Positions 17,369 through 38,614 of a DNA stretch of 64,000 nt are shown here, piece after piece. A program made the position numbers and the translations under genes. Positions within the stretch are counted from its first letter, which is position 1. Each line of letters starts with the position of its first letter. The notes under the pieces are model-generated. The model ran no database searches, had not been told where the DNA came from, and saw only the letters and a list, made by a program, of their open reading frames with translations. Source of the stretch: Candidatus Methanohalarchaeum thermophilum (GTDB lineage Archaea > Halobacteriota > Methanonatronarchaeia > Methanonatronarchaeales > Methanonatronarchaeaceae); contig MSDW01000001.1 of assembly GCA_001914405.1 (NCBI GenBank), positions 186,001-250,000 of the forward strand. Reading direction: 5' to 3'.

Positions 17369-17779
17369 TCTTTGCCCAAGAAGTCACCTTCCTGAATCTT
17401 TTGGTTTAGGTGGGTGATGAATTGGGGTAGTTTTATATATCCAAAGACAGATGCATTGGATACGAAACGGGATGCCGGAAAGCCTCTAGTTCTCCAAGCT
17501 GGTGGAGAGCTTTAGGGCAGGGGAGAATGAATAGCTCTCCTGAACGAAGAAAGCCTCTTCTGGCATCGGGAGTACCGTGACCGTACTCGAAGCCACTACC
17601 GTTGACCTGACCTCTGTACATCAAGTTGGTGAGGTAGGTGGCAACCGTCAAAAAGGTGGACGTTCCACCCTATCAGGACGTTCCTGATAGATTCCCTCGG
17701 TAGTCCGAAAACCAGATGATACGGACGAATAGAAGGAAGCACCCTCCTAACCAACAGTTAGGTAGGTGAAGAGGTCACT
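17369..17779 (+). mobile_element. family C ORF-less element, copy C1, next to tRNA-Trp
   Basis: It follows TTAAC and starts with the same left hairpin class as family B (AAGAAGTCACC ... GGTGGGTGATGAATTG). The GC-rich interior has GGATGCCGG, AAAGCCTCTAG, CTACCGTTGACCTG and AACCAGATGATACGG, shared with C2 and partly with D. The right hairpin ends AGAGGTCAC at 17779, only 30 bp before the tRNA-Trp gene, so it lies immediately upstream of that promoter. The minus-strand 72-codon frame is not a gene. Confidence 0.82.
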
Positions 17780-17809
17780 CTGTACAAATAACTAAATAAG
17801 TTGCTTGTG

Positions 17810-17963
17810 GGGCCGTGGCCTAGTCAGGAGGGGCGACGGGCTCCAGCGGTATGATGAGCAACGGGTCTACTGACCCTGACCTGACGAGGTCAGGAATGAT
17901 GATCCGTTGGAGCACTGACCTGAAGAGACCCGTCAATCGAGGGTTCAAATCCCTTCGGCCCCA
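17810..17963 (+). tRNA. tRNA-Trp (CCA) with 81-nt box C/D intron
   Basis: The acceptor stem GGGGCCG pairs with CGGCCCC, with A as discriminator (17963). The D arm is GCCT/GGGC, the anticodon stem ACGGG/CCCGT, the anticodon CCA at 17843-17845, and the T arm is GAGGG-TTCAAAT-CCCTT. The intron (17847-17927) interrupts at the canonical position after base 37. It holds box C ATGATGA (17851-17857), D' CTGA (17870-17873), C' ATGATGA (17896-17902) and D CTGA (17915-17918). The antisense stretch before D' (ACGGGTCT) pairs with exon 2, and the one before D (TGGAGC) pairs with the anticodon region. This matches the known archaeal pre-tRNA-Trp intron that guides 2'-O-methylation of its own tRNA. Confidence 0.96.
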
Positions 17964-18011
17964 TTTTAAAAGAGAGTTCGACTCTTTTTTCTTATTTTCT
18001 CTCATTTTAAC

Positions 18012-18432
18012 TTATTTGGTGAGAAATCCCTCTTCCTCAAATTTCTGATTTTAGGTAGGGGAGATGAATCGGCACTATGATATTTGTATTTGGGAATCGA
18101 ATAGGTTTTTGTTGGGAGGTTCTGAGGCCTATGGGCTGAGTTTGAGCAGCTGAGTGCTTGGGTGTTTAGGTTGTTCCGCAAAGGGATACGTGGAAGGGCT
18201 TGGATCGGGGGTCCTAGTGACCGGACCGGGGCCCGTAACTGGGGCATATGATGGCGATGGATATAGGTGATGTCTTTGGAAAACAGTTTAAGTTTTTGTA
18301 ACCTGCTAACTAGAGCTGAGTCGTGCTCGGCATACACCCCTGGTAGGGAGCTATGAGCCTTGGAGCCTGAAGCACTCCAGATAGGTGGAAGTACCTTCCT
18401 AGATCTTTGAGTTAGGTAGGTGAGGAGGTCAC
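18012..18432 (+). mobile_element. family B ORF-less element, copy B2
   Basis: It follows TTAAC. Left end TTATTTGGTGAGAAATCCC with a stem built on CTCAAATTTCTGATTTTAGG; right end with AGGTGGAAGTACC and GAGGTCAC at 18432. Interior blocks GGGCTGAGTTTGAGCAGC, TGTTCCGCAAAGGGATACG, GGCCCGTAACTGGGGC, GAGCTGAGTCGTGCTCGGC and AGGGAGCTATGAGCC are nearly identical to B3 and B4. The antisense 144-codon frame is a by-product. Confidence 0.85.
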
Positions 18433-18701
18433 CCATTATTTTTTTGGTATAGTTAAGATTTAGCTGTGTTTTGGTATTGATAATTAATTGGAATGTACAA
18501 AAATTGTGGATCTTTCTTATTTTGGTTAATTAGAAATATAAGTGTGGAAGAAACTTGGGCTCTTCGTGTGGTTTTTTAAGTTTAAATGGTTTTTAGGAAT
18601 CTTTGTTTTTTGAAATACCAGCTAGGTATATACTTTAGCTTATTTATTGGTTTAAGTTTTTTTGGGGTATATGTCTGGTTATTGGGGTTATCTTTTTGTT
18701 T

Positions 18702-19991
18702 TCATTTTTCTTCTTCTCGTGATTTTATTAGTAGGAAGACTAGGAGAACTACGAATATGGCAATTATTAGTTGTATGAAGGCAATAAGTAAAAGTGGGCC
18801 ACTTATGATGTTCTTTATTAGGTTCTGTATGGGTATGTTTATTCCTTGTTCTCTATCTGTTTCTTTATCGGCTTCTGTTATTTTTAAGGTTATTGTATCG
18901 CTGTTAAATTTCTTGTATTCTACTTGAGATATCTTTATTTTGTGATTACCTTGTCTGTCGAACTTGATGTTCTTCCATTTATCTTCTGCTTCTCCTTGTA
19001 CTTTGTAATTAGTTAGGTTGTGGTGGGGGAAGTTTAATACTAAGTTATCTATTTCTGTAAGGTTGCTTATTTTTAATATGCACCTAGGGCTTTTTTCTAT
19101 ATAACTTTTTAAAACAGTTACTTCTGTTTCTTTGGGATTAACCTCAAACTTGTGTGCTTGTACTAATATTGTATGTTTTATATCTCTTTTTAATGAATTG
19201 AAGAAAGTATATATTTCTTCTGAATTAGATGTAGTGATATAACTAATTTTTTCTGTTACATTGTCAGATATGTATTTTACGCTTTCTATTTCTTGTATCT
19301 GGCTAGGTAAATCAACTTTAACAACGACGTCTTTTAATTGCTTATTTGAAGTATGGTTAATTTTGGTTGTCGAGTTTACATTGTAGCTGTAAATAGTTTT
19401 TCTCCAGCTTTCACTATTGTTAGTTGTATCTGTTGTGATCAGTGTGTAGTTGTGTTTACTCCAATTCTCTTCTGTGTAACTGAACTTATGGTTGCTTATA
19501 TTTATAATATCTATTAATTGGTTATCTCTTTGTAGCAAATACTTTTGGTTATTTAGGTTATTTATTTCAATTGTTGCAGATCCGGTATTTTGGCTAAAAC
19601 TCCATTTAATATGATTTTTCGTGTATTTTTTAATTATCACTTTTACTTGATCTGTTGAATTGATCTTTAGGTCCTCATAGAATGTTATAGTTTTTATATC
19701 TGAGTTCTGAATAGTTAGGTTGTATCTGCCACTAACTACGGTTGTATTTGTTCCTTTGGTAATTGATAAATAATTTAAGGTAGTTTGATGGCTGTAATTT
19801 AGGTAATAGGATGCATTATTTGGGTGAAGGTACACATCTGGGGAGATGGTTACATCTTCTTCAGATAAAGCATTTGCTTGTGGTGTAGTTAGAGTTAGGG
19901 CTGCGATTGATAGTAATATAACTAATAATAGGATTAATTTGGCTTGATTTAATTTTTTGATTCTTCCTAGGTTATTTAACTTTTTTTCCAT
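18702..19991 (-). CDS. secreted, C-terminally membrane-anchored surface protein, unknown
   Basis: A 429-residue protein. An N-terminal signal peptide (LILLLVILLSIAALTL up to ANA) leads into a beta-rich, Asn/Thr-rich ectodomain with many N-glycosylation sequons (NAS, NYS, NTT, NSS and others). A single C-terminal membrane helix (LLLIAFIQLIIAIFVVLLVF) is followed by KSREEEK. No domain is recognised; the repeated beta-sandwich feel suggests a cell-surface or S-layer-associated protein. The gene ahead of it on the same strand (20026-21762) is also a secreted protein. The 34-bp gap between them suggests a shared transcript. Confidence 0.75.
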   Translation of the reverse strand: MEKKLNNLGRIKKLNQAKLILLLVILLSIAALTLTTPQANALSEEDVTISPDVYLHPNNASYYLNYSHQTTLNYLSITKGTNTTVVSGRYNLTIQNSDIKTITFYEDLKINSTDQVKVIIKKYTKNHIKWSFSQNTGSATIEINNLNNQKYLLQRDNQLIDIINISNHKFSYTEENWSKHNYTLITTDTTNNSESWRKTIYSYNVNSTTKINHTSNKQLKDVVVKVDLPSQIQEIESVKYISDNVTEKISYITTSNSEEIYTFFNSLKRDIKHTILVQAHKFEVNPKETEVTVLKSYIEKSPRCILKISNLTEIDNLVLNFPHHNLTNYKVQGEAEDKWKNIKFDRQGNHKIKISQVEYKKFNSDTITLKITEADKETDREQGINIPIQNLIKNIISGPLLLIAFIQLIIAIFVVLLVFLLIKSREEEK

Positions 19992-37498: not shown

Positions 37499-37906
37499 AG
37501 TAGAGTATGGCAGGAAACCCCATGGCTCTGTTGTGAGGATGATTGCCTTTACCAACACTTGATCGGCTCTAAGACTAATACAGGTTTGGTTGTTAGGTGT
37601 TCTGGCTTGAATAAATTACGTGGCCACCTAAATCGGTTCAATTTGCCCAAAAAATCTCTGGGTAAGCCCGAAACAGTTTTAGAGTAGGGTGTAGTGGTAG
37701 GTGTGGAGCTACCAGAGTGAATAAGAGGAGCCATTATGTGCTAATATAGGGATTCTTTTACCTTTAGTTCTGATCCAATTCTTCCCTTGGAACTTAAGTT
37801 CCTCTATTAATCAGGTGGATATGAGAAGCCTGGTGTGAAATAAACTCTTTTTCACGGGAAGGAGGGCACGGGGAAGCCACACAGCTTTGCTTTAGGATCA
37901 CTTCAC
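37499..37906 (+). mobile_element. family A ORF-less element, copy A6
   Basis: It follows TTTTAT. It begins AGTAGAGTATGGCAGG, like A2. The interior matches A2 closely (GGTTGTTAGGTGTTCTGG, GGTAAGCCCGAAACAG, TCACGGGAAGGAGGGCACGG), and the right hairpin CCACACAGCTTTGCTTTAGG ends ATCACTTCAC at 37906. It lies just downstream of sufB. Confidence 0.83.
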
Positions 37907-37951
37907 CTAATTTTATCTTAGTTATTGAAAATTTATTTTAGTACTTGATTT

Positions 37952-38006
37952 GTTCTTCTACCTAAAATCGGAGATTTGAGGTAAGAAGCGCTTCTTAACC
38001 ACTAAG
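37952..38006 (-). repeat. solo IS200/IS605-type palindrome S3
   Basis: On the minus strand, CTTAGTGGTTAAGAAGCGC followed by a hairpin on CCTCAAATCTCCGATTTTAGG. It matches the left end of A/E elements. Between it and S4, at about 38022-38130, lies a truncated A-like interior (GGCAGTTGATTGG, TGTCTTTGAGGGC). Confidence 0.6.
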
Positions 38007-38142
38007 AAAAATTGAGATATATATGGCAGTTGATTGGACTTTTCTTTTCCTCTATTAAGTCAATTGATAGTGATCTACTTGTCTTTGAGGGCCGGTTAGC
38101 CCTTGGACTGGGAGGTAGGTATGGTTAAAGTTATTTTTTTAT

Positions 38143-38198
38143 CTTAGTGGTTGAGAAGACCTCTTCCAAAATCCCTGATTAGGGAGGAGGTAGTTCAC
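38143..38198 (+). repeat. solo IS200/IS605-type palindrome S4
   Basis: It follows TTTTTAT, runs CTTAGTGGTTGAGAAGACC through a hairpin CCAAAATCCCTGATTAGGG, and ends GTAGTTCAC. It is the clearest solo unit, 56 bp from target to TTCAC, and abuts D2. Confidence 0.7.
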
Positions 38199-38218
38199 GG
38201 GAGTTAGTAGTTACAGTA

Positions 38219-38614
38219 CCTCGTCAGAAGCCTCATCTGCTTTAGCGGTGGGATGGATGGCGAACTGTTAGTAGGAGTAGGGATAGATGTGTGTTTAGAG
38301 TTTTGGGTAAGTTTCGAGTCTTCAAGGCCGGTTGAGGGTGGCAGGACAGGATCTAATGAATCCCGTTCTTGGCAGCGAAGCCTCTATCCGGAAATCAGGA
38401 AGTAGCTACTGGCAGTGCTCTTTTTTTGAATCTTGAACCGTTGAATCTGTTCTCTGTAAATCCGCATTTGGGTGGGTCAAGTCGGTTTTTAAGGATCGGG
38501 GACCTGCAAAAACCCCTGCCTGTTGCGTGAATGTTTTCGACCGGTAGCCCAAGAAACTGAATAATACAGGTGAATGGATGGGAACCCCACAAGCTGATTC
38601 GTGGGGGATGTCAG
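38219..38614 (+). mobile_element. family D ORF-less element, copy D2
   Basis: Left hairpin AGAAGCCTCATCTGC/TTTAGCGGTGGGATGGATGG. The interior shares TTTCGAGTCTTCAAGGCCGG, GCGAAGCCTCTATCCGG, CTACTGGCAGTGCTCT and GAACCGTTGAATCTG with D1. The right hairpin AACCCCACAAGCTGATTCG then GTGGGGGATGTCAG ends at 38614, one base from the stop codon of the flavin reductase gene on the other strand. Confidence 0.84.

Follow-up and report, generated by a model that had tools for sequence, protein, structure and literature searches.

Scattered through a 64,000-nucleotide stretch of the Candidatus Methanohalarchaeum thermophilum genome (assembly GCA_001914405.1, contig MSDW01000001.1, positions 186,001 to 250,000; hereafter the window, whose numbering is used throughout) are repeated, structured, gene-less elements of about 400-500 nt, which raise the question of what RNA they carry and whether it is one RNA or several. 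Three families of these elements, A, C and D, had been read in an earlier note as a single RNA superfamily with a common core; the family letters A-D were assigned from the motif list of that note, which gives no coordinates for individual families. The answer that we consider probable, on comparative grounds, is that these three families, together with B, are gene-less IS200/IS605 elements similar to the palindrome-associated transposable elements (PATEs), each carrying a full-length, enlarged omegaRNA (the guide RNA of TnpB) and served by TnpA and TnpB in trans.

The nature of the core is indicated by the location of its relatives in the 2.14 Mb host genome, which contains nearly 80 loci for tnpB and some 15 for tnpA, with uninterrupted tnpA frames among the latter. 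Nucleotide profiles of the C core match on the same strand, from roughly 25 nt beyond the TnpB TNB domain onwards, at several independent tnpB loci, and the A profiles match the equivalent position in another tnpB clade. The sequence 3' of the tnpB domain ends ..GGTAAGTCC..GACCTCTATCCGAGGCGGGGGCGCTACTGGC.. in D-type genes, ..GGAAAGTTTGAGAAAGCCTCTTCTG.. in C-type genes and ..GGTAAGCCTGAAACTTTGGGAGTAGGGTGTAGTGG.. in A-type genes. The TnpB guide RNA overlaps the end of tnpB and terminates at the right end of the element (PMC8612924, PMC10278001), and because the core extends over this same position, from tnpB end to right end, it is best interpreted as that RNA. The same-strand homology to the tnpB 3' end RNA holds for A, C and D alike; in addition, the 3' end of the core is the right-end hairpin, with variable flank immediately after it, and the RNA secondary structure is conserved. 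The three families would accordingly share an origin in TnpB omegaRNA, with at least two tnpB lineages as their sources. In the A core, GGTAAGCC corresponds to coding sequence of A-clade TnpB (..MGKPETLGVGCSGGVDTPRRIRK..), and the core translates as GKPETSGVGCSG.., resembling the TnpB C-terminus GKPETLGVGCSGGVDTP; stops or frameshifts interrupt this translation in nearly all A solo elements, in which the tnpB reading frame has been lost. The intact A-clade TnpB (C2:143846-145183) has 445 aa and contains OrfB_IS605 and TNB domains.

Three covariance models bear on the relationships among the families: R1, made exclusively from 12 solo cores of C and D and searched in 377 kb of host-genome loci fetched around matches; R2, built from 23 A cores; and R3, built from 11 tnpB-linked C-type sequences only. 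R1 recognises tnpB 3' ends with E-values of 1e-18 to 1e-5 overall (1e-18 to 7e-17 for C-type ends and about 1e-6 for D-type ends), and R3 finds both the C solos (E-values to 2e-21) and the D solos (2e-7 to 5e-5). By these matches, and by those of the profiles, C, D and the C/D-type tnpB RNAs are one RNA family, in agreement with the earlier note as far as C and D are concerned. It is family B, omitted from the A/C/D grouping of that note, which joins C and D in the search: R1 matches B at 16387-16618 (E 1.4e-4) and 18195-18432 (E 0.009) with alignments spanning the whole model, the score including a contribution from the right-end hairpin that is part of R1 and also present in B, and R3 matches B weakly (E 0.004-0.39). 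Family B is thus likely a third member of the C/D RNA family.

The same searches separate family A from this group. R2 recognises A-clade tnpB ends (E 5e-14 to 2e-5) and finds no C or D in the genome loci, scoring at most 6 bits, except at true A copies, over eight C/D loci with filters off; R1 reports no A, reaching at best 7.9 bits over two A elements with filters off, partly from the right-end tail; and R3 finds no A. Judged by these models, A and its tnpB clade are separate from the C/D family, with no recognisable common core, and the core proposed to run through A, C and D is not supported, since a significant cross-family match, the absence of which the earlier note named as refuting its proposal, is lacking in either direction; a scan from C and D extends to B but not to A. 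This lack of matches fits the published divergence of omegaRNAs, the scaffolds of which measure between 79 and 466 nt and, among divergent examples, have only the right-end hairpin in common (PMC10278001).

The proposal of a common core was based on a shared order of short motifs, which were checked in 13 window elements, with the order tested against 1000 dinucleotide shuffles. GGTAAG(C/T) is present in all four A copies tested, in one of two C and in both D elements, GTGAATAA in three of the four A copies, and GAATxAATCC (with at most one mismatch) in the C element at 33040 and both D elements. AAGCCTCTAxT is found in both C elements and one D element (the other has AAGCCTCT), and ATGATACGGxTG occurs exactly in one C and one D element only. 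TGTTGA(C/T)C has a single occurrence, in C 33040; the A copy at 29118 has TGTTGACG, and TGTTGA is absent from both D elements and from the other three A copies tested. The ordered series of GGTAAGY, GTGAATAA or GAATxAATCC, and TGTTGA is complete in two of the eight A, C and D elements (A 29118 and C 33040). Since this trio arises in only 0-2 of the 1000 shuffles, the motifs are not a product of chance; as evidence for a single family their order is weak, given that the trio is incomplete in six of the eight and TGTTGA is missing from D. The motif list therefore stands for the individual motifs, while the arrangement is looser than claimed, and the motifs are, on this comparison, family-specific conserved sequence rather than proof of one family uniting A, C and D. 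What can be said for one superfamily is that GGTAAG(C/T) and GAAT..AA follow a similar order and that all three RNAs lie at tnpB 3' ends, which makes a remote common ancestry via TnpB likely (the A and D clades of TnpB are 32% identical over 151 aa). Against a core common to A, C and D stand the negligible cross-family scores given above and the placement of GGTAAG at differing residues of the protein, directly after the NIGKRAL stretch in D-type TnpB and six residues later in the A type, and we hold a single superfamily of this kind to be very improbable.

Structure in the RNA is supported by compensatory changes. RNAalifold gave a poor structure for the full A alignment because of misaligned helix arms; hand-set helices were used instead and checked by counting pairs. 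In the A alignment, 84.7% of the 32 hand-set pairs are standard, with 60 two-sided changes versus 29.7 ± 3.9 in shuffles, and pairing falls to 38-54% when slid by 1-3 columns. With the addition of copies from a second genome (G001, described below) and of more divergent host copies, the two-sided changes number 97 versus 45.7 in shuffles, in an alignment adjusted to the structure and biased in its favour. The C/D alignment is 90% paired, with 40 two-sided changes versus 19.2; all of these figures are strong, are not tree-corrected and derive from shuffle controls that leave relatedness in. Structured RNAs on transposon-like elements with diversified ends, as the earlier note described them, are thus borne out. 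The A copies also look mosaic (for example locus L009 1721-1927 and locus L013 1720-1926), with apparent recombination between copies of left ends, of right-end hairpins and even of the two arms of one helix.

In the window, solo elements of family A lie on the forward strand at 29108-29576 (core 29320-29530; target- or TAM-like TTTAT, TAM denoting the transposon-associated motif, at 29103-29107; ends ..GGGGTCACTTCAC), 29614-30126 (divergent; core 29876-30097), 34940-35361 (core 35110-35322) and 37499-37906 (core 37661-37878; left end of a third type, AGTAGAGTATGGC..), and further A cores, beyond the interval considered in the earlier note, lie at 1160-1368 and 5484-5703 (both forward), with divergent cores at 45638-45874 (forward) and 61584-61809 (reverse). 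Family C is represented by 17369-17778 and 33035-33459 (both forward; omegaRNA cores starting at 17541/17550 and 33207/33218, respectively), and family D by 28363-28737 (reverse; core 28363-28576; ends ..GACGTCAG), 38210-38614 (forward; core 38377-38614) and a degenerate copy at 58952-59356 (forward).

The ends of these elements are those of IS200/IS605 transposons. TTTAT directly precedes the left end in 33 of the 45 A copies with readable flanks, and in 42 of the 45 the right end is CACTTCAC or closely resembles it, the sequence that follows varying from copy to copy. The A-clade tnpB elements likewise have TTTAT before their left ends, which are of two kinds also found on A solos, and D has a left end matching those that precede tnpA in five complete tnpA-tnpB elements; the ends of A and D are therefore common to elements encoding TnpA or TnpB, as is expected of non-autonomous IS200/IS605 derivatives. 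Subterminal hairpins are present at both ends, with no terminal inverted repeats (in A, and by inspection in C/D), and no target duplication is seen at A, where the boundaries TTTAT| and CACTTCAC| adjoin unrelated sequence, as judged from flanks rather than from empty sites. By their sequence, A, C and D are gene-less IS200/IS605-type transposons with hairpin ends. The near-invariant GAATAAG of the A core (for example 29381-29387) can pair with the TTTAT target, a single G-U pair being the only departure from complementarity; this may be a coincidence.

These elements are numerous. R2 has at least 149 matches in the genome, of which at least 137 are long and not linked to tnpB, and R1 has 93. 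In G001, a genome of the same family and another genus, there are six A solos together with the same tnpB clade; among 60 relatives, searches with R1 and R2 detected no A, C or D RNA outside the same family, under strict filters that could miss weak matches.

Relative to the tnpB-linked omegaRNAs, the RNAs of the solo elements are enlarged. In C and D, an insertion of about 75 nt separates GGTAAG/GGAAAG from AAGCCTCT, and a further stretch of about 70 nt, with ATGATACGGGTGAATGG, precedes the right-end hairpin; in A, the additional stretch before that hairpin is about 80-100 nt long (GTTCCCTGTTGAC..CAGGGAAGCC) and has closing helices that covary, and a 5' domain (GGCAGTTGG..AAAAAGCAATCCC) occurs only with A cores and is common to both genera. 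Within each of these solo families the domains are conserved, in A between genera too, and no tnpB-linked omegaRNA of the host genome carries them. This observation bears directly on the view that the elements are litter of the miniature inverted-repeat transposable element (MITE) or PATE kind, i.e. internally deleted IS605 copies in which the omegaRNA is a passive remnant, conserved through recent amplification. There is precedent for such a process, as deletion of the IS605 core yields PATEs, which can outnumber IS605 itself (PMC3119063), and a PATE-like relic in Halanaerobium retains the last 58 nt of tnpB and the right end (PMC7290912). Yet because the extra structured domains are absent from tnpB elements, the solo elements are not simple deletions; moreover, compensatory changes have built up among copies that have diverged and across genera, A persists in a second genus, and litter of this kind seems to us unlikely.

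The same domains could also be taken as a sign that the solo RNA has departed from TnpB guidance, to act as a TnpB-titrating decoy, to guide a TnpB regulator that lacks nuclease activity, to protect interrupted genes as a self-splicing or circular RNA, or to serve only as a single-stranded DNA structure for TnpA. The lack of a counterpart to these domains in tnpB-linked RNAs and the conservation of the A 5' domain in both genera agree with such a role, as does the known circularisation of archaeal omegaRNAs (PMC12558985). However, the tnpB-linked architecture persists throughout the 3' half as far as the right end, 300-400 nt of structure would presumably be more than a role as DNA alone requires, and no group I or II intron or other relevant Rfam family is found at gathering threshold, so that we rate departure from TnpB guidance as quite improbable. 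Group I and II introns, as in IStron-like elements, were considered separately and rejected for want of Rfam support; the sole Rfam matches in the window at gathering threshold are one tRNA and its C/D-box intron sR3.

For the gene-less, omegaRNA-carrying elements favoured here, a mode of propagation can be envisaged. TnpA, the Y1 transposase of complete elements in the same genome, would mobilise the solo elements in trans. The solo RNA, its 3' end being the right end of the element, would be transcribed on into flanking DNA, the first ~16-20 nt after ..TCAC serving as guide, and would be loaded onto TnpB made elsewhere. Following excision, TnpB would cut the empty donor site, in which a left flank of the TTTAT kind adjoins the flank that matches the guide; repair templated by the sister chromosome would then bring the element back and lead to its retention. 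TnpB guide RNAs are thought to hold their transposons in place by just such cutting of the empty site. Several considerations weigh against this scheme: TTTAT would be present as the transposase target site even if it had no part as a TAM; translation yielded a single clearly intact TnpB of the A clade; the compensatory changes speak for RNA (or single-strand DNA) structure and not for TnpB binding; and the extra domains, at 75-100 nt each, make binding by the same TnpB uncertain. A more general proposal, that long-lived RNA-only transposon families encode just an enlarged TnpB guide RNA, with TnpA and TnpB in trans, and arose as parallel lineages (A versus B/C/D), each with its own tnpB clade and ends and with domains gained after gene loss, appears to us evenly balanced between true and false. 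If gene-less elements kept by the guide trick do outnumber their cognate tnpB genes about tenfold, TnpB would be a common supply on which parasitic RNAs draw, with implications for the way in which guides acting in trans, and in time CRISPR arrays, could part from their nuclease; the A lineage offers more than 100 natural guides in one genome, usable for a direct test.

Two known systems are especially close to these elements. With the TnpB omegaRNA or reRNA (of ISDra2, and the haloarchaeal sotRNAs RF02656 and RF02657) they share the position at the tnpB 3' end, the stop at the right-end hairpin, a right flank that would be the guide and a left flank that is the target or TAM motif; unlike those RNAs, they are found in gene-less elements and, in the case of A, C and D, are extended by further structured domains, and they match none of the known Rfam omegaRNA or sotRNA models. 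The PATEs of Haloquadratum walsbyi are likewise gene-less, heterogeneous and present in many copies, with near-terminal palindromes related to IS605 types, but are defined by their ends, some being core-deleted, and the available part of the description reports no conserved omegaRNA core (PMC3119063). A search of the open-licence literature found no description of PATEs whose defining feature is a conserved, enlarged omegaRNA.

A further connection is suggested by HgcC (RF00062), a so far unexplained Rfam family, which gives matches of about 18-34.5 bits, all below its gathering threshold of 50 and hence too low for a claim of membership. In the window these lie at a tnpB remnant (27072-27208, reverse), the right end of a D element (28350-28425, reverse) and that of a C element (33360-33472, forward), and elsewhere in the genome loci at five tnpB 3' ends (L079 1112-1251, L116 1768-1907, L090 1946-2085, L100 1821-1977 and L059 1312-1453). 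From the clustering of sub-threshold matches at tnpB 3' ends and C/D right ends, HgcC would itself probably belong to the TnpB omegaRNAs of archaeal IS605 elements.

The remaining features of the window include the four B solo elements, all forward (16218-16618 and 18029-18432, which contain the R1 matches, 26374-26775 and 31578-31975), and several tnpB-associated sequences. The 3' end of a broken tnpB with a C/D-type omegaRNA lies at 27085-27219 (reverse; PF07282 match at 27258-27419), and an omegaRNA-like stretch follows another broken tnpB at 44616-44808 (forward; PF07282 at 44414-44518). A D-type tnpB at 59926-60939 (reverse) has an open frame of 337 aa with a GTG start; the omegaRNA at its 3' end (59876-60001, reverse) is matched by R1 with E 3.4e-5, and the tnpA relic of the same IS605 element (61051-61401, reverse) contains two in-frame stops. 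Family E, at 30178-30501 (reverse), is about 320 nt long, with an A/D-type left end, the right end ..GGAGGAAGTCAC and at least 10 genome copies, and is probably another solo omegaRNA lineage, scoring only 15 bits with R3. A terminal-only element of about 58 nt with a single hairpin (22208-22265), which starts like a left end (GACTGAGAAGACACC) and finishes like a right end (GAGGAGGTCAC), resembles element ends fused through deletion. The tRNA gene with the C/D-box intron sR3 (17809-17963) lies directly 3' of the C element at 17369-17778, and an A/E-type left end (TTATCTTAGTGGTTGAGAAGACC) at 38138-38189, immediately 5' of the D element at 38210-38614, suggests that one element was inserted into or beside another.

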